64,000 bases of DNA from an uncultured Pseudomonadota bacterium (GTDB taxonomy: Bacteria; Pseudomonadota; Gammaproteobacteria; Steroidobacterales; Steroidobacteraceae): the NCBI GenBank assembly GCA_902826225.1, contig CADEED010000004.1, positions 1 to 64,000 on the forward strand, written 5' to 3'. Shown here in pieces: positions 37,906 to 46,817 of this stretch (position 1 is the first letter of the stretch; every line of letters begins with the position of its first letter). Made by a program: the position numbers and the translations under genes. The notes beneath the pieces were generated by a model that was not told the DNA's origin, made no database searches, and saw only the letters and a program-made list of their open reading frames with translations.

Positions 37906-39537
37906 TCAGTCCGCGCCGTATCCGAACTTCTCGGCCCATGGGGCGAGCGCGGGCAGGATGGGCGCGAGCTGTTCGCGGTATCTGCGCCACTCGCCGACGC
38001 CGCCCGCGTTGAGGCCCTGCGCGAGCTGCGCGCCGCTCGGCGTCGCGACACCACGGGCGCGCGCCGTTCCGGCGAAGTCCCGCATCTTCTCGTTCCAGTC
38101 GAGGTCGAGGAACGCGCACAGTCCGCGCGCCTCGTTCTCGAAGTCGCCGATGAGTTTCTCGAGTTGCACGCGATGCACACGCAGCTCGAGATCGCGGACC
38201 AGGATCTCCGTGATCTCCATCACCGCGTCGTAGAGCGCCGCCGCCGTCTCGAGGTCGAGCATTTCGTACATCGACGCGTTCATCCGGAATCGGCGCCGGT
38301 AGCAGCTCCACACGACGTCGCGTGGATCGCGCAATGCCAGCAGGATCTTCGCCTCGGGGAACAGCCGCGCGATGAGCGGCAGCTTGAGTCCGTTGAGCGG
38401 GTACTTGTCGACGAACAGGTTGCGGTTCACGAACACGCCCGACTCCGCGACGCGGCGCCAGTAGGCGTCCCGCAGCGGCCCGAGCTGCGCCTCGCCCGCC
38501 AGACCCAGCCGCGCGAGGTCGCCCGGCGAGCGCATGTAGGTGCGCACGGCGTCGATCAGGGTCTCCCGCTCCTCCAGCGCCACGACGCGCGGGTGACTCG
38601 CGAGGATCTGCTCGAGCAGCGTCGTGCCCGACCGCGGAAAGCCGATGAGGAACGCGTGCCCGTTCGCCGGCGAGTTCGAGACTTCCGGCGGCACGACGGT
38701 CATGAGGTCGCGCGCGCCGTGCGCCCGCAACCAGTCGCGCAGCTCCTGCGCATAAGCGAGCGTGCCCGGACCGCCGAAGTCGCGCGCGTAATGGGCGCGA
38801 CGCATTTCGTTCGATTCGCGGTAAGCGGCAAACGCCTCCGGCGCGCGACGCTGCTTGTCCAGCGCGTCCCCCAAGGTGCTCAGCGCGAGTGAACGCTCGA
38901 CGTCGGTGAGGCGCGGCTCATCCAGCAACGCGCGCAGCCGCTGCTCGGCCGCGGCGGCGTCGTTGTCCGCGATCTCGGCCTCGGCCACGACCATCGCCGC
39001 CGGGGGATAGTTGGGTTCTGCGGCGAGCACCGCCGCGCCGTGCTGGCGGGCGGCGGCCCGGTCACCGCGCCGGACGCAGACGGACGCGAGCCCGGCCCGG
39101 GCGAGCAGGTTGCCGGGCTGGAGTTCGAGAGCCCGCGCGTAACGCGACTCGGCTGCCGGCAACTCGGCCAGGGTCTCGAGGACCTGCCCGAGCGCGACCA
39201 GGGCCGGGGCGAAATCGGCGTGCAGCTCGACCACGCGCTCGAACAGCGGTTTTGCCTCGTCCGGCCGCTCGAGCCGCAGCAGGAGCAGGCCCAGGGCATG
39301 TAGGCAGCCGGCGTCATCGGGAGCCAGTGCCAGGCCCTGCCGCAGGCTGGCCTCGGCCTCCGCTAACCGGCCCACCGATTCGCGATGCATGGCCAGTGTG
39401 TTGTGCACGAAGGGATGGCGGATGCCGTCGGCCAGCGCGCGTTCGGCCAGGCCCGCCGCACCGGCCACGTCGCCGGACTGGACGAAGTCCCGCACCTGGC
39501 GCAGACGTTCTCGGGCTTCGGGACTCAACGTACTCAT
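37906..39537 (-). CDS. TPR-repeat sulfotransferase
   Basis: A 543-residue fusion. About residues 1-245 are tetratricopeptide repeats. The C-terminal half is a PAPS-dependent sulfotransferase: the 5'-phosphosulfate loop GFPRSGTTLLEQIL begins at residue 299 and the 3'-phosphate region ALRDPRDVVWSCY follows. Members near TonB-dependent receptors are common in this part of the Proteobacteria and may sulfate a protein or glycan; the target is unknown. I start at the second ATG, because TAGAAT lies ten bases before it and the upstream ATG would overlap that element. It is divergent from the receptor gene. Confidence 0.9.
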   Translation of the reverse strand: MSTLSPEARERLRQVRDFVQSGDVAGAAGLAERALADGIRHPFVHNTLAMHRESVGRLAEAEASLRQGLALAPDDAGCLHALGLLLLRLERPDEAKPLFERVVELHADFAPALVALGQVLETLAELPAAESRYARALELQPGNLLARAGLASVCVRRGDRAAARQHGAAVLAAEPNYPPAAMVVAEAEIADNDAAAAEQRLRALLDEPRLTDVERSLALSTLGDALDKQRRAPEAFAAYRESNEMRRAHYARDFGGPGTLAYAQELRDWLRAHGARDLMTVVPPEVSNSPANGHAFLIGFPRSGTTLLEQILASHPRVVALEERETLIDAVRTYMRSPGDLARLGLAGEAQLGPLRDAYWRRVAESGVFVNRNLFVDKYPLNGLKLPLIARLFPEAKILLALRDPRDVVWSCYRRRFRMNASMYEMLDLETAAALYDAVMEITEILVRDLELRVHRVQLEKLIGDFENEARGLCAFLDLDWNEKMRDFAGTARARGVATPSGAQLAQGLNAGGVGEWRRYREQLAPILPALAPWAEKFGYGAD

Positions 39538-39547
39538 GGGGGCGGCG

Positions 39548-39553
39548 ATTCTA
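39548..39553 (-). promoter_or_regulatory. Putative -10 (TAGAAT) of the TPR-sulfotransferase gene
   Basis: On the minus strand TAGAAT ends ten bases before the ATG at 39537. The leader would be only a few nucleotides. Confidence 0.4.
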
Positions 39554-39661
39554 GGCATCGATCCGGGCTCCGCAACCGTCCCTCGTGTCGCCGGGGACCG
39601 GCCCGGGAACGGGGCACGGCTCGTCGCAAATCCTTACAAATAGACGTTGTTTTTGTGCTAC

Positions 39662-39790
39662 AGGCTTTTGTTCCGGGGGGTTCGTGGTTAGTATCGGCGC
39701 CACAACTACCGTGACGAAAGCCCTAGAAAAGCCTTTGTTCCGGTATTCAGGGGTTAGTGTTCGAAACGCAACGACCGAGACATTCATCTT
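39662..39790. repeat. Two imperfect direct repeats, period about 67 bp, upstream of the TonB receptor
   Basis: GTTCCGG occurs at 39670-39676 and 39737-39743, each followed by GGTTAGT at the same spacing within one base. CACAACTACCGTGAC at 39701-39715 matches CGCAACGACCGAGAC at 39767-39781 in 12 of 15 positions. The 300-bp region between the sulfotransferase and receptor starts otherwise holds no gene. The repeats could be a double operator or part of the receptor leader; no function is shown. Confidence 0.55.
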
Positions 39791-39838
39791 CAGCGTTCCG
39801 TTCACTGTTTTCGCACAAAGCTTTCAGGAGATATCTGA

Positions 39839-42796
39839 ATGACTCGCAATACCGAGATCGCACGTTCTATCCGTCGGGCACTCTTCATGAGTGCTTGCGC
39901 GGCTGGCGGCGCGAGCACCGCGCTCGCGCAGGACCAAGAGAATCCGGACGCACAGGAACAAGACACCGTCGTCGTCACGGGCTCACGCATCATCACTCCC
40001 AACCTTCAGGCCATCAGCCCGGTCACCGCGCTGTCCGCCGAAGAAATCGTCCGCACCGGCCGCAGCTCGATCGAAGACGTGATCAACGAACTGCCGCAGG
40101 TGTTCGCGGCGCAGGGCGCGAACGTTTCGAACGGCGCCAACGGTACGGCGACGGTCAACCTCCGCGGCCTCGGCTCCAACCGCACGCTGGTGCTGTTGAA
40201 CGGCCGTCGTCTCGGCCCCGGCGACCCGGGCTCCGTGACGTTCGCCTCCGACATCAACATCGTCCCGACGATGCTCGTGCAGCGCGTCGAAATCCTCACC
40301 GGCGGCGCCTCGTCGGTGTACGGCGCCGACGCCGTCGGCGGTGTCGTGAACTTCATCATCGACAAGAAGTTCGAAGGCGTGAAGATCAGTGGTGGTTACA
40401 GCTTCTTCAACCACAAGAACGACAACTCGAACGCGCAGGACGTGCTCGAAGCCGGTGGCATCGACGCGCCGGAGAGCACGGTCAACAAGGGCTACGACAA
40501 GAACTTCTCGTTCGCCGTCGGCTCGAACTTCGCCGACGATCGCGGCAACGCGACGTTCTATGCGACGTACCGCGACACCGATCCGGTGTTCCAGGCGGAC
40601 TACGACTACTCCGCCTGCACGTACTTCTCGGGTGACGAATTCACCTGCGGCGGCTCGGGCACGGCCTTCCCGGCGCGCTTCCGTCCGCTCAGCCCCGTCA
40701 CGGGCGGCGCGGTCGGCAGCTACACGCTGAACCCGCAGACCGGCGTGTTCCAGGCCGGCAACGCCCCGGCCTACAACTTCGGTCCGCTGAACTATTACCA
40801 GCGTCCGAACAAGCGCTACACGGTCGGTTCGTTCCTGAACTTCGCGCTCAATGAGAAGGCCGAGGTCTACGGCGAATTCAACTTCCTCAAGGACCAGTCG
40901 GTGTCGCAGATCGCCCCCTCGGGTCTGTTCACGCTCGACGCAACGGTCAGCTGCTCGAACCCGCTGTGGACGGCGGCTCAGTTCACCGCGTTCTGCGGCC
41001 AGTTCGGCCTCACCGCCGCGGACGACACCAACATCCGCTTCAACCGCCGCAACATCGAAGGTGGCGGTCGCCAGCAGGACCTCGAACACAGCGCCTATCG
41101 CGCCGGTGGCGGCGTCAAGGGCGACATCAACGAAGCGTGGAGCTATGACGCGTCCCTGTTCCAGGGCACCGCGCGCATCTCCAACACGTACCTGAACGAC
41201 TTCTCGATCACGCGCTCCGGCCGTGCCCTGAACGTCGTCCCGGGTCCGGGCGGCGTTCCGACCTGCCAGTCGGTCATCGACGGCACGGACGCCAACTGCG
41301 TTCCGTACAACATCTGGGCGGCCGACTCGGTCACACCCGCCGCGTTGAACTACATGCAGATCCCGCTCGTCTCGGTGGGTGAAGTCACCGAGCGCATCGT
41401 GAACTCGACGTTCACGGTCGACCTCGGCGAATACGGCGTCAAGCTCGCGGCGGATGACGGCATCCTCGTGAACTTCGGCTTCGAAATGCGCAAGGTCGAA
41501 ACGGACTTCCAGCCGGACGGCAACTACATCGCCGGCGACGGCGCCGGCCAGGGTGGCGCGACGCTGCCGCTGTCGGGCTCGTTCAAGGCGAAGGAAGCGT
41601 TCTTCGAAGCACGCCTCCCGATCCTCAACAACGTCTCGGCCGAACTCGGCTATCGCTACTCCGACTACTCGGGCGCGTTCGACACGAGCACCGACACGTG
41701 GAAGGTCGGTCTCGAGTACTCGCCGGTGGATGCGGTCCGCCTGCGCGGCAGCTTCCAGCACGCCACGCGCGTTCCGAACATCTATGAGCTGTTCGGCACG
41801 AACCAGGTCGGCCTCAACGGCACGCTCGATCCCTGCGCCGGCGCGACGCCGGTCCTCACGGCCGCGCAGTGCTTGAACACGGGCATGACCGCGGGCCAGT
41901 ACGGCAACGTCGAAGCGAATCCGGCGGCGCAGTACAACGGCTTCATCGGCGGCAACCCGAACCTGAATCCGGAAGAGGCGGACACGATGTCGTTCGGCAT
42001 CGAGTTCCACCCGAACTTCGCGCCCGGCCTGCGAGTGAACCTCGACTGGTACAACATCAAGATCGACGATGCGATCCAGAACCCGAACCAGGACTTCACG
42101 CTGCTGCAGTGCGCCCTCACGGGTGCGGCGGCGGCTTGCGGCCAGGTCAATCGTGACTCGCAGGGCTCGCTGTTCGAGACGAACGAGGGCTTCGTGATCG
42201 ACACGCTGCAGAACATCGGCTCGATCGAGACCAGCGGTATCGACATCGACGCGAGCTATGCGTTCGACATCGGTGGCGCCGGCAAGCTGCGCTTCGGCCT
42301 CATCGGCACGCTGCTCGACAAGTACGAAGTGACGCCGCAGGACGGCATCACCTACGACTGCGTCGGCCTCTACGGCAGCATCTGCACCCCGGGAAACCCG
42401 AATGGCGCCCCGGTCGCGAAGTTCCGCAGCAAGGCGGACATCACCTGGACGACGCCGTGGAGCGGCATCGACCTGAACCTGGGCTTCCGCTACTACGGCG
42501 CGTCGAAGCGCGACCTCGAGGACTCGCAGGAGTCGCTGGCGTTCCTGGGTTCGGCGACGGGCGCATTCGCGACCGACTCCGAGCTGGGCTCGCGCAGCTA
42601 CGTCGACCTGTCGGCCTCCGTGTCGCTGTTCGAGAAGTACACGCTGCGTGTCGGCGCGAACAACCTGTTGGACAAGGATCCGCCGCTCAACGGCTCGAAC
42701 ACCTGCCCGACCGGTCCTTGCAACGGCAACACGTGGCCGCAGGCCTACGACGCCCTCGGTCGTCAGGTGTTCCTCACGATCGGCGCCGAGTTCTAA
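39839..42796 (+). CDS. TonB-dependent outer-membrane receptor
   Basis: A 985-residue transporter that uses TonB energy to import a bulky ligand. A signal peptide covers about residues 1-30. A TonB-box-like DTVVVTG (about residues 42-48) precedes the plug domain, which has NLRGLGSNRTLVLLNGRR and EILTGGASSVYGADAVGGVVN. The rest is a 22-stranded barrel closing in F (LTIGAEF). Length and plug features resemble the OAR/sugar-receptor type common in Xanthomonadales and Sphingomonads. AGGAG lies before the ATG. The adjacent oxygenase, hydroxylase and sulfotransferase hint at a modified ligand or a modified receptor. Confidence 0.96.
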   Translation: MTRNTEIARSIRRALFMSACAAGGASTALAQDQENPDAQEQDTVVVTGSRIITPNLQAISPVTALSAEEIVRTGRSSIEDVINELPQVFAAQGANVSNGANGTATVNLRGLGSNRTLVLLNGRRLGPGDPGSVTFASDINIVPTMLVQRVEILTGGASSVYGADAVGGVVNFIIDKKFEGVKISGGYSFFNHKNDNSNAQDVLEAGGIDAPESTVNKGYDKNFSFAVGSNFADDRGNATFYATYRDTDPVFQADYDYSACTYFSGDEFTCGGSGTAFPARFRPLSPVTGGAVGSYTLNPQTGVFQAGNAPAYNFGPLNYYQRPNKRYTVGSFLNFALNEKAEVYGEFNFLKDQSVSQIAPSGLFTLDATVSCSNPLWTAAQFTAFCGQFGLTAADDTNIRFNRRNIEGGGRQQDLEHSAYRAGGGVKGDINEAWSYDASLFQGTARISNTYLNDFSITRSGRALNVVPGPGGVPTCQSVIDGTDANCVPYNIWAADSVTPAALNYMQIPLVSVGEVTERIVNSTFTVDLGEYGVKLAADDGILVNFGFEMRKVETDFQPDGNYIAGDGAGQGGATLPLSGSFKAKEAFFEARLPILNNVSAELGYRYSDYSGAFDTSTDTWKVGLEYSPVDAVRLRGSFQHATRVPNIYELFGTNQVGLNGTLDPCAGATPVLTAAQCLNTGMTAGQYGNVEANPAAQYNGFIGGNPNLNPEEADTMSFGIEFHPNFAPGLRVNLDWYNIKIDDAIQNPNQDFTLLQCALTGAAAACGQVNRDSQGSLFETNEGFVIDTLQNIGSIETSGIDIDASYAFDIGGAGKLRFGLIGTLLDKYEVTPQDGITYDCVGLYGSICTPGNPNGAPVAKFRSKADITWTTPWSGIDLNLGFRYYGASKRDLEDSQESLAFLGSATGAFATDSELGSRSYVDLSASVSLFEKYTLRVGANNLLDKDPPLNGSNTCPTGPCNGNTWPQAYDALGRQVFLTIGAEF

Positions 42797-42836
42797 CGGC
42801 CAACCTTCGCAAGAAGGCGTTCGGTACGAACGAAAG

Positions 42837-42865
42837 ACGGCGGGCGAAAGCCCGCCGTTTTTTTT
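42837..42865 (+). terminator. Intrinsic terminator after the TonB-dependent receptor
   Basis: A 9-bp stem ACGGCGGGC / GCCCGCCGT with a GAAA tetraloop runs into eight T. The next gene starts 22 bases later with its own -10. Confidence 0.95.
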
Positions 42866-42874
42866 GCGCGCGGG

Positions 42875-42880
42875 TAAAGT
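42875..42880 (+). promoter_or_regulatory. Putative -10 (TAAAGT) of a leaderless oxygenase gene
   Basis: TAAAGT ends seven bases before the ATG at 42888 and just after the receptor terminator. No Shine-Dalgarno is present. Confidence 0.5.
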
Positions 42881-42887
42881 GCGGCCC

Positions 42888-43544
42888 ATGGCCGATATCG
42901 TCCCCTTCTTCGCCGTGCCGTTCGCGTTCTCGCGGCACCCGGATCCCGCCGCGCTCAACCGCGAGCTTCGGGACCTGTTCGTCGCGAAGTCCGCCGAAGG
43001 AGCCGCGTATGCGAATCCGCGGCCCATCACGCTGCGGAACTCGACCGTGTTCGAGAGCCGTTTCGATCTCTTCCGCTGGCCCGACAAGCCGGTGCAGCAG
43101 CTCAAGGAGTTCTGCTGGCACGAGATGCTCAACGTGCTGTGCGAAATCAACCGCTACGACGCGGCGATGCGCGCGCAGCTGCTGATCTACAACGACGCCT
43201 GGTTCCACGTCACCCGACGTGGCGGGTTCTTCTCGCTGCACAACCATCCGAACGCATCCTGGTCCGGCGTGTACTGCGTCGACTCGGGCACGAGCGAGGC
43301 CGACCAGCGCGGCGGCGCGCTGACGTTCGTGAATCCCACGCTGACGTCGACGATGCACGTCGATGCAGGCAATGCCTCGCTCCAGGGCGCGTTCGCGAGC
43401 GGCATCCGCACCTTGCGGATGGAGCCGGGTCAGCTCGTGCTGTTCCCGTCGTGGGTGCTGCACGAAGTGCAGCCGTTCGAAGGCGACGGCGAGCGCATCA
43501 GCGTCGCTTTCAATTGCTGGTTCGGACTGAAGGACCCGCGTTAG
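42888..43544 (+). CDS. Putative 2-oxoglutarate/Fe(II)-dependent oxygenase (2OG-FeII_Oxy_5 type)
   Basis: A 218-residue cytoplasmic oxygenase related to the TIGR02466 family. The iron ligands are in SLHNHPN (His118, His120 region) with WSGVYCV behind it, and a late histidine occurs in VLHEVQPF, followed by ERISVAFN, which contains the 2-oxoglutarate-binding arginine. The domain boundaries match this family well. Such proteins lie beside TonB-dependent receptors and sulfotransferases in several lineages. The substrate is not known. It is transcribed from its own promoter after the receptor terminator. Confidence 0.88.
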   Translation: MADIVPFFAVPFAFSRHPDPAALNRELRDLFVAKSAEGAAYANPRPITLRNSTVFESRFDLFRWPDKPVQQLKEFCWHEMLNVLCEINRYDAAMRAQLLIYNDAWFHVTRRGGFFSLHNHPNASWSGVYCVDSGTSEADQRGGALTFVNPTLTSTMHVDAGNASLQGAFASGIRTLRMEPGQLVLFPSWVLHEVQPFEGDGERISVAFNCWFGLKDPR

Positions 43545-44011
43545 TCGACGCGGCGTACCTTCGCCGAGCGGCCGCTCGGCATGATCATCTGGAAGGAGCC
43601 GAGCGCCGCGCGATTGATGGTGACGGTGTCGCCTTTCCGCAGCAGCGGATCGGTGCCGGAGATCTGCTTCCAGGCCTGGCCGTTCTCGAGCTTGATCAAC
43701 AGCGAGCCGTCATCAGCGCGGCCGAATGCCTTCACGGTCGATTGCAACGATTGCAGATCTCCGCCGCTGTCCGCGGGGCGCGTCGGCGCGGGGGTGCTCG
43801 ACAGCATGCCGAACGTCGCTTCGGGCGTGGCCGCGGGACCGCCCGCCGGTTTGCCGGCCGCCAGCGCGGCGACGGCGCGATCGAAACACGCCAGCCGCTC
43901 GTTGTTGCGGCCGATGGCAGCGCAATTGAGGAGTTCGGGCGGAACCGGCGGCGGCGTGTCGGCCGCGGCGGTCGTGGCGAGCGCGAGTGAGACGAGCCAG
44001 TGGAATTTCAT
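43541..44011 (-). CDS. Exported protein with DNGQ/ENGQ-type C-terminal domain
   Basis: A 156-residue protein with a signal peptide (residues 1-18). The N-terminal part holds two cysteines in LLNCAAIGRNNERLACFDRAVA, as in TagO-like small proteins. An alanine/proline linker leads to a beta-rich domain with LENGQAWKQ, GDTVTINRAALGSFQMI and AKVRRV. The same order occurs in the protein at 45381. The function is unknown. TAAGAT lies six bases before the ATG. The stop overlaps the oxygenase stop by 4 bp. Confidence 0.78.
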   Translation of the reverse strand: MKFHWLVSLALATTAAADTPPPVPPELLNCAAIGRNNERLACFDRAVAALAAGKPAGGPAATPEATFGMLSSTPAPTRPADSGGDLQSLQSTVKAFGRADDGSLLIKLENGQAWKQISGTDPLLRKGDTVTINRAALGSFQMIMPSGRSAKVRRVD

Positions 44012-44017
44012 GGCGCG

Positions 44018-44023
44018 ATCTTA
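44018..44023 (-). promoter_or_regulatory. Putative -10 (TAAGAT) for the gene ending at 43541
   Basis: On the minus strand TAAGAT ends six bases before the ATG, with no Shine-Dalgarno. Confidence 0.45.
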
Positions 44024-44036
44024 ACGCCGCTCCGGC

Positions 44037-45332
44037 TCAAGCGCCGTACGAGCCCGGGCCGCGGCCGCCATAGAACTCCGCCATCGCCGGAATCGCCTGC
44101 CGGATGACGGCGCGATCGTCGTCCGAGAGGAAGGGATTCCAGACATCGAAGATCAGCACCGCCCGCGGAAGCCTGCTGTCGTTCCAGGCCTCGTGCTCGA
44201 TGGTGTCGTCGAACACCCAGGCCTCGCCCGCGCGCCACTCGCGCGTCGTGGAGCCGACGCGGAAACGGCATTGCCCGGGCAGCACGAGCGGCAGGTGCAC
44301 GATGACGCGCGAATTCGTCACGCCCGTGTGCGGGGGAATGTGCGAGCCGGCGTCGAGGATCGAGAAGAACGCGGTGGGCGCGTGGCCGGGAACGTCGTGC
44401 ATCGGCAGCGTCCGCAGCAGCGCGGCCGTGCGCGGGCAGCGCGCGACATTTGCCTCGACGGGCTGGCCGTCGCGCCACAGGAAATACGCGCTCCACTTGC
44501 GCGACCGGTTGAGGTCGCGCCATTGGTCGAGCGGCACGCCGTCCGGATAGGCGATGTACGGCCGCAGGGAATCCTGGTCTTCCGCGAACACGCGCTCGAA
44601 TTCCTCGCGCACGGTCGCCGTCGCGGCTTCGAGCACCGCGAGCCACGGGAAATGCTCGCGTGGATAGAACTCGAGCGCGGGCAGCATGGGCACGTGCAAC
44701 TGCGTCGGTTCCGGGTAATAGATCCGGCGCTTGCCGACGAGTGCGCCGAGCGCGTGCTCGATGCGTGACGAGCGAGCGCTTTCCGGCACGGCGGCGCCGA
44801 TCTTTTGTGCCAGATGGCGCTCGAGCGCCGCGGCGTTCACGCGGACGGCTTCGGTCGCTTCCTCGATCGCGGGACGCAGCGCCTCGGGCAATGTCGCACC
44901 CTCGGGAAGGGTCTTCAACGCGTTCTCGTAGATCACCGCGGCGGCGCGTGCGCCGTGCCGGCGGCGGGTGAGATCCGCCTTGCGCAGCAGCGCCAGCAGG
45001 TGGCGCGGTTCGAGCGCGAGGGCCCGTTCCAGGGCCACGGCTTCTTCGTCCGGCCGATCCAGTTGTCGCAGCGCGGAAGCGAGGTTTACCCAGATGGACG
45101 CGATGCGATCGTCGCGCTCCAGCGCGCGGCGCAGCAGGTCGGCGGCCTCCACCGGGCGGCCGGCGTCCAGGGCGCGGATGCCGGCCGTATTCAGGACGAG
45201 CGGACTCTCGGGCGCCATCTTTTGCGCCTCGAAGAGCAAGTGCATTCCGCGCGCCATGTCGCCCGACGCAAAGGCGCGATCCGACTGCTGCAGGAGCCCG
45301 CGCAGCCGGCTTTCTTCTTCTGACGACGCCAA
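44037..45332 (-). CDS. TPR-containing aspartyl/asparaginyl beta-hydroxylase-like oxygenase
   Basis: A 431-residue protein: an N-terminal TPR region (about residues 1-165) and a C-terminal Asp/Asn beta-hydroxylase domain. The domain shows HIPPHTGVTNSRVIVHLPL, with the first iron histidine and the 2-oxoglutarate-binding part, and EAWVFDDTIEHEAWN with the second histidine. The start is TTG at 45332, with AGGGAAA six bases upstream; no ATG lies before the first conserved repeat. It shares the TPR-plus-modification-domain layout with the sulfotransferase at 37906. The substrate is unknown. Confidence 0.88.
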   Translation of the reverse strand: MASSEEESRLRGLLQQSDRAFASGDMARGMHLLFEAQKMAPESPLVLNTAGIRALDAGRPVEAADLLRRALERDDRIASIWVNLASALRQLDRPDEEAVALERALALEPRHLLALLRKADLTRRRHGARAAAVIYENALKTLPEGATLPEALRPAIEEATEAVRVNAAALERHLAQKIGAAVPESARSSRIEHALGALVGKRRIYYPEPTQLHVPMLPALEFYPREHFPWLAVLEAATATVREEFERVFAEDQDSLRPYIAYPDGVPLDQWRDLNRSRKWSAYFLWRDGQPVEANVARCPRTAALLRTLPMHDVPGHAPTAFFSILDAGSHIPPHTGVTNSRVIVHLPLVLPGQCRFRVGSTTREWRAGEAWVFDDTIEHEAWNDSRLPRAVLIFDVWNPFLSDDDRAVIRQAIPAMAEFYGGRGPGSYGA

Positions 45333-45764: not shown

Positions 45765-46817
45765 CTAGTCCCGCTGCGGGAGGCGGCTCGGGATGCCGTG
45801 CCGTTTCATGGTGACGTTGCTCGCGCCGCCGCGCGGCAGGAAGCGCACCTCGCTCTTGCGATAGTCGATCATCATCGCGTCGGTGCTGCCGAGCACGTCG
45901 ATGCCGAGCACGATCGCCGGCTCGTCCTCGACTCCCCAGATCCTGAAGACCTCGAAGTCCCCGTAGACCACCTGCAGGCTGCCGATCTCCACGCCCGCGA
46001 CGCGGATCTGCGGCGTCTTGACCAGGTCGCCGAACACCGCGTGCGAGGTCGCCGCGTAGACCTGCGTTCGGGTCGGCTCCGGCGCGATCTTGCGGCGTTC
46101 GCGGAGGGCCCGGAGCAGCGCGGGATTGCCGAGCGACCGCTCCGCGCCGGTGTCGATGATCGCGGCGGTCTTGATGTTGCCGACGCGCGCGTCGACCACC
46201 ACGAGCCCACCGAACTCCAGCCGCGCGCGCGCCCGCTCCCATTCCTCGCCGACGCGCGGGCAGGCCTTGTCGTGGATCGCGAGCCGGCCGCGCACGAAGT
46301 TCACGACGAGACAGCCGCGCGCGAACGCATCCGCGCCGAAGATTCCGTCGGCATCGGCGAATACACGGGGCTCGACGACGGGCAGGCTGCTGTTCGTGAG
46401 CTTGATGCCGCCCGCGGTGATGTCGTCGACGAGCACCGTCGGCACGACCTCGGAGCCGGTGATGCCGCGCAGCAGTTTGCTGTTCGAGTGGTCGACGGGC
46501 AGAGACAGCCGCCGCACGACGCGCGGCGCGATGACCGTGCTCGAGGCGCCCGTGTCGACGACGAACGCGAACGGGCCAACGCCATTCACGTAGACCGGCG
46601 CCATCACGCGTCCGATGCGGTCGGGCTGCGTGGCCGCGACGTATACGAAGCTCTCGGGCTTGATCTCGGCGGGCGGCACCACTTCCAGCGAAGGCAACAC
46701 GACGGGTGCGCCGGCCGGCTGCCCGGCGGCAGTCGGTTCGACGTGTGCGGAGGCGCGCGCGACGGGCGCCGAGGCGATGATCGCCAGGACTACGACTGCC
46801 TGAATTCGATGCGCCAT
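45765..46817 (-). CDS. Exported retropepsin-like aspartic protease, tandem domains
   Basis: A 350-residue periplasmic protein with a signal peptide (residues 1-23). It contains two retropepsin-like halves, each with the catalytic D-T-G: VVDTGASST (Asp88) and IIDTGAERS (Asp222). Each half also has the later G-x-D/L-G segment (GIFGADAFA and VLGIDVLGS). Most bacterial relatives have one such unit, so this looks like a self-contained pepsin-like pair. Substrates are unknown. TAATGT lies six bases before the ATG. It is divergent from the histidine kinase. Confidence 0.88.
   Translation of the reverse strand: MAHRIQAVVVLAIIASAPVARASAHVEPTAAGQPAGAPVVLPSLEVVPPAEIKPESFVYVAATQPDRIGRVMAPVYVNGVGPFAFVVDTGASSTVIAPRVVRRLSLPVDHSNSKLLRGITGSEVVPTVLVDDITAGGIKLTNSSLPVVEPRVFADADGIFGADAFARGCLVVNFVRGRLAIHDKACPRVGEEWERARARLEFGGLVVVDARVGNIKTAAIIDTGAERSLGNPALLRALRERRKIAPEPTRTQVYAATSHAVFGDLVKTPQIRVAGVEIGSLQVVYGDFEVFRIWGVEDEPAIVLGIDVLGSTDAMMIDYRKSEVRFLPRGGASNVTMKRHGIPSRLPQRD

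Follow-up and report, generated by a model that had tools for sequence, protein, structure and literature searches.

A TonB-dependent receptor with a TPR-sulfotransferase, an AspH-like hydroxylase and a second 2-oxoglutarate oxygenase: a candidate protein-modification module in a Steroidobacteraceae genome

The hydroxylase AspH, known from human structures, combines N-terminal tetratricopeptide repeats (TPRs) with a PF05118 oxygenase domain in a single chain, and human TPST1 and TPST2 are protein-tyrosine sulfotransferases. Arg688 of AspH has been described as taking a direct part in substrate binding (PMC12816917). In bacteria, RaxST of Xanthomonas offers a precedent for tyrosine sulfation of an exported peptide, RaxX (PMC6637879). 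Here we describe a locus within a 64,000-nucleotide stretch of DNA (the window) from an uncultured Steroidobacteraceae bacterium, where a TonB-dependent receptor (TBDR) lies together with a TPR-sulfotransferase, an AspH-like TPR-hydroxylase and a second 2-oxoglutarate (2OG) oxygenase. All four genes had been named in a preliminary description of this DNA and were recovered by gene calls and Pfam/NCBIfam scans (Table 1). Its observation that two of the three enzymes carry TPRs was borne out by Pfam, and the third enzyme is TPR-fused in other modules. Among the partners of the enzyme set, the receptor is the most constant one. We tentatively read the locus as a receptor-linked protein-modification module, in which TPR-docked cytoplasmic enzymes would act on the receptor or on a co-exported partner before secretion. 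No published description of such a module was found in open-access full text, a coverage that leaves out most subscription journals.

To measure linkage, 59 relatives were searched with the hydroxylase, TBDR plugs were counted in the same genomes, and hydroxylase-TBDR distances were determined. Within the family of the window, 25 of the 29 full hydroxylase homologues were located 0.1-4.6 kb from a TBDR, as compared to 4.8 expected from TBDR density at a distance limit of 4.7 kb (P ~8e-17, genes being treated as independent). When only one gene per genome was counted, 17 of 19 hydroxylases were near a TBDR as compared to 3.1 expected (P ~2e-12). Three of the four homologues without a nearby TBDR sit on cut contigs. 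These statistics rule out a chance neighbourhood. Gene models were from a simple purpose-made gene caller, and the genomes were draft and metagenome assemblies.

A scan with the window receptor revealed 42 related loci. Phenylobacterium (Alphaproteobacteria) and its relatives, which have the same receptor type, show a tight run of TBDR, TPR-sulfotransferase, TPR-sulfotransferase and aspartyl protease, and in most complete cases genes for a TPR-hydroxylase and for a member of the window's small secreted protein family are found just upstream. The Phenylobacterium hydroxylases are 44-46% and the sulfotransferases 47-49% identical to those of the window, and the module recurs in other Proteobacteria as well. 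The preliminary description had taken the absence of enzymes beside orthologous receptors as grounds for refuting its proposal; such absence was seen to a limited extent. The receptors nearest to that of the window, of Steroidobacter type and 54-56% identical, are without adjacent enzymes (L101-L103, L107), but all four genomes hold the hydroxylase elsewhere, and in three of these it neighbours a different receptor (L143, L144, L146).

Receptor and enzymes also co-vary. Pairwise distances among receptors correlated with those among the nearest hydroxylases (r = 0.65, or 0.70 within the family) and among sulfotransferases (r = 0.41, or 0.62 within the family), and in both cases none of 2000 shuffles was as high. 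Since shared species ancestry contributes to such correlations, they are supportive but not decisive. Beside TBDR modules, PF05118 and Sulfotransfer_3 domains are fused in one chain of ~600-640 amino acids (aa) (L085 1085-3001, L065, L092, L098, L146), and in L072-type loci TPRs are joined to the PF13759 oxygenase; such domain fusion speaks for a single substrate shared by the activities. The receptor is duplicated in L082, and so are the small protein, hydroxylase and sulfotransferase that go with it. Chance or inherited synteny with no functional link would fit the close receptors that lack enzymes nearby, but is contradicted by the linkage statistics, the recurrence in two classes, the co-variation and the fusions, and we consider it very improbable. 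The same lines of evidence support the functional link between receptor and enzymes proposed earlier.

The hydroxylase scored 148.6 bits against PF05118 (cut-off 22.6), and human AspH structures were the best solved relatives of its catalytic domain in PDB sequence matches (2e-26). Like AspH, it has N-terminal TPRs and the oxygenase domain in one chain. In its predicted model (mean predicted local distance difference test score, pLDDT, of 82), residues 3-411 matched the TPR and oxygenase domains of AspH (Z ~22), and the catalytic part matched AspH 5apa with a Z of 22.0 and a root-mean-square deviation (rmsd) of 2.2 A over 188 residues. Over the whole chain, the rmsd was 16-17 A; therefore, the relative placement of TPR and oxygenase parts seen in AspH is not reproduced, and either differs or is uncertain. 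The AspH-type metal site (HxG...H), with Gly replacing the usual carboxylate, was present in 89 of 89 homologues, and the equivalent of Arg735 (Arg at +10 past the second His) in 81 of the 82 homologues where the motif was found. Unlike AspH, the window hydroxylase has no membrane anchor. PF05118 also includes OlsC and LpxO, and the hydroxylase gave NCBIfam matches to both, as would suit a module that modifies an envelope lipid or glycan through LpxO/OlsC-like hydroxylation and a sulfated polysaccharide. Such a role appears quite unlikely: the scores of 90.2 bits for OlsC and 54.1 bits for LpxO are far under the curated cut-offs (450 and 500, respectively), whereby both identities were rejected, and the TPR architecture and best structural matches indicate AspH.

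The catalytic domain of the sulfotransferase (about residues 300-548) is TPST-like. Protein-tyrosine sulfotransferases are its nearest solved structures (1.3e-11 to 9e-7), it aligns end to end with TPST1, and it possesses an RSGTTL-type loop and a Glu that is invariant across 19 homologues and which we take, after TPST2, to be the catalytic base. The TPR part aligns with OGT. As against TPST1/2, the window enzyme is cytoplasmic and TPR-fused, and the E-values of the match are only about 1e-11 to 1e-6. The locus also differs from raxX-raxSTAB by gene content, the latter comprising a small peptide and export genes and no TBDR with hydroxylases. The second 2OG oxygenase, the start of which is most likely the ATG at 42888, scored 62.8 bits against TIGR02466, where the cut-off is 62.5. 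On inspection, no signal peptide or membrane segment was seen in any of the three enzymes. 3'-Phosphoadenosine-5'-phosphosulfate (PAPS) and 2OG are cytoplasmic cosubstrates. Thus, modification of an exported target must precede export.

In the main rival explanation, what the enzymes modify is an imported ligand of the receptor, a small molecule or short peptide, which would be hydroxylated and sulfated so that it can be used or detoxified. The superfamilies of PF13469, PF13759 and PF05118 all have small-molecule members, the sulfotransferase showed a weak PDB match to the CurM polyketide sulfotransferase, free-amino-acid proline hydroxylases were among the fold matches of the hydroxylase, and consensus protein sites are absent from the receptors. 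We nevertheless find this explanation rather doubtful, because two of the enzymes bear TPR arms (as does the third in other modules), the best matches are to AspH and TPST, both of which act on proteins, and no inner-membrane importer, nonribosomal peptide synthetase, polyketide synthase or catabolic gene was seen in the module genes covered here.

According to the protein-modification reading, three soluble enzymes would work in the cytoplasm: the TPR-sulfotransferase with PAPS, the TPR-AspH-like hydroxylase with 2OG, Fe and O2, and the second 2OG oxygenase. The TPR arms of two of them may dock on a shared exported protein that is still unfolded in the cytoplasm, most likely the adjacent TBDR or else a co-encoded envelope partner. 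Its side chains would be altered, probably by Tyr sulfation and by hydroxylation of Asp/Asn or similar residues, and the exported receptor complex might then bind its ligand or partner differently. A wider proposal, possible though doubtful, is that bacterial TBDRs are modified post-translationally by dedicated enzyme sets for certain receptor subfamilies, TPR-docked TPST and AspH homologues sulfating Tyr and hydroxylating Asp/Asn or other residues in the cytoplasm prior to export. If true, side chains of outer-membrane receptors would be modified in ways considered characteristic of secretory proteins in animals. Views of receptor specificity, of recognition by phages or colicins and of how nutrients are captured by soil and freshwater Proteobacteria would then change, and the module would offer a first system in which to test what TPR-sulfotransferases and bacterial TPR-AspH homologues do. 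Since the module occurs in named, apparently cultured strains, e.g. Phenylobacterium kunshanense (L109, with a TBDR, two sulfotransferases, a protease and a small protein) and Steroidobacter gossypii (L143, with a hydroxylase, an oxygenase, a small protein and a TBDR), this is directly testable.

Several results weigh against the protein-modification reading. The AspH consensus for epidermal growth factor-like substrates was absent from the five candidate window proteins tested. Tyr with acidic flanks, expected for TPST-like enzymes, was not enriched (3.3% in module receptors vs 4.2%). No Tyr, Asp or Asn position clearly separated receptors with enzymes from those without, a comparison weakened because the enzymes are often encoded elsewhere in the same genome as a receptor that lacks them as neighbours. 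In 89 of 89 homologues, I, V, L, T or A, i.e. a hydrophobic residue or Thr, takes the place of AspH Arg688, a substrate/2OG contact; the substrate must therefore differ from that of AspH, and the sequence suggests an enzyme that works like AspH on a different substrate. Lastly, 21 of 31 phylum-wide hydroxylase loci have no recognised TBDR nearby. Sulfation and hydroxylation of the receptor or another envelope protein, as put forward in the preliminary description, stays plausible in that the nearest solved relatives modify proteins, but the consensus tests and the tests for enzyme-specific receptor sites were negative.

The phylum-wide loci came from an even sample of 398 genomes across the phylum, 27 of which had the hydroxylase at E <= 1e-40. 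At the remaining 10 of the 31 loci, a TBDR lies no more than 8 kb away, and 5 of these 10 hold a further enzyme of the set, as compared to 1 of the 21 without a TBDR. With about two thirds of the hydroxylases lacking a TBDR, the family also works without the receptor; one form is linked to the receptor and another stands alone, and this label switches many times on the hydroxylase tree. Stand-alone TPR-hydroxylases were seen in L174, L188, L190 and L192, some near a gene for a protein of 736-746 aa (purL type in L190). Large proteins beside hydroxylases or sulfotransferases were considered as unrecognised TBDRs but proved to be mostly housekeeping enzymes; one in L166 is an OMP_b-brl_4/CarboxypepD_reg protein.

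Beyond the four genes named earlier, the neighbourhood includes two small secreted proteins and an aspartyl protease of periplasmic type. The gene of the 156-aa small protein lies ~25 bp downstream of the hydroxylase gene, with which it probably forms one operon. A small protein gene is directly downstream of the hydroxylase gene in L082 (both copies) and L087 as well, and adjoins it in Phenylobacterium, and the family was found at 17 of 51 module loci but at none of 26 receptor loci without enzymes. These data would fit another explanation, in which the enzymes act mainly on this secreted small beta-barrel protein instead of on the receptor, and the protein would serve the receptor as a partner in the periplasm or at the surface. 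The 156-aa protein could be a substrate of the hydroxylase. It contains no Tyr, though, and so cannot be a target of tyrosine sulfation, and the family is missing from two thirds of the modules; as the main substrate it seems unlikely. Its predicted model had a mean pLDDT of 74.5 (barrel ~90). Foldseek yielded no fold identity: nothing matched at E <= 0.001, and the matches beyond that, to ribosomal proteins and IF-1, were weak. The C-terminal domain of the 123-aa protein is related to that of the 156-aa protein.

The aspartyl protease was present at 16 of 51 module loci as compared to 2 of 26 enzyme-free receptor loci. In Phenylobacterium modules (L108, L112, L113, L125 and others), a gene for an S49 (SppA-type) peptidase is convergent to that of the aspartyl protease. 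It is also found near the TBDR-hydroxylase pair in L168, and may be either synteny or part of the module. Proteins of ~325-390 aa with no Pfam match lie beside some modules (L083 15603-16676, L084 7383-8558, L093 5874-6932, L089 3791-4768).

The window receptor has a signal peptide, recognised by eye, and plug and beta-barrel domains by Pfam. BtuB is closest to its plug among solved chains, and the receptor has seven Cys pairs, mostly conserved. The receptor and sulfotransferase genes are divergently transcribed across 280 bp. Because a GC-rich hairpin and T run follow the receptor gene, the oxygenase may be transcribed separately from the receptor. The terminator scan placed this hairpin on the - strand, and the call is weak, since the terminator count in the region was not above that in shuffles.

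Table 1. Features of the receptor-enzyme locus (window coordinates)
Feature	Position	Strand	Evidence
TPR-sulfotransferase, 550 aa	37906-39558	-	Pfam: TPRs and Sulfotransfer_3 PF13469 5.8e-31; no signal peptide
TBDR, 985 aa	39839-42796	+	Pfam/NCBIfam: Plug PF07715 3.6e-21, barrel PF00593 1.1e-33
Terminator-like GC-rich hairpin, then T run	42837-42866	.	Directly 3' of receptor gene, from sequence
2OG-Fe(II) oxygenase, PF13759/TIGR02466 type, ~218 aa	42888-43544	+	PF13759 6.5e-22; no TPR in this copy
Small secreted protein, 156 aa	43541-44011	-	Signal peptide, Cys...ERLACFD motif, C-terminal small beta-barrel
TPR-Asp/Asn beta-hydroxylase, AspH-like, 431 aa, TTG start	44037-45332	-	PF05118 1.7e-43
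Second small secreted protein, 123 aa	45381-45752	+	Profile match and alignment to the 43541-44011 protein
Aspartyl protease, 350 aa, signal peptide	45765-46817	-	Asp_protease_2 (Pfam)

The genome of the window encodes one further TPR-sulfotransferase and two further TPR-2OG oxygenases; the sulfotransferase and one of the oxygenases are likewise immediate neighbours of TBDRs. Receptor-adjacent modifying enzymes of other families than those of the window module are found in the same genome at loci combining a TBDR with a tryptophan halogenase, Cupin_8 and DUF6445, for which no published function was found in the open-access literature. Receptor-adjacent sulfotransferase, oxygenase and halogenases make modifying enzymes beside receptors a general theme of the lineage. 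At L078 6236-12051 (G000:C51), a TPR-2OG oxygenase, a TBDR and a tryptophan halogenase occur in a row, and at L212 Cupin_8, halogenase, DUF6445 and TBDR do so. About 12 full-length Trp_halogenase genes are present in this 4 Mb genome (L210-L216), several of them adjoining TBDRs.

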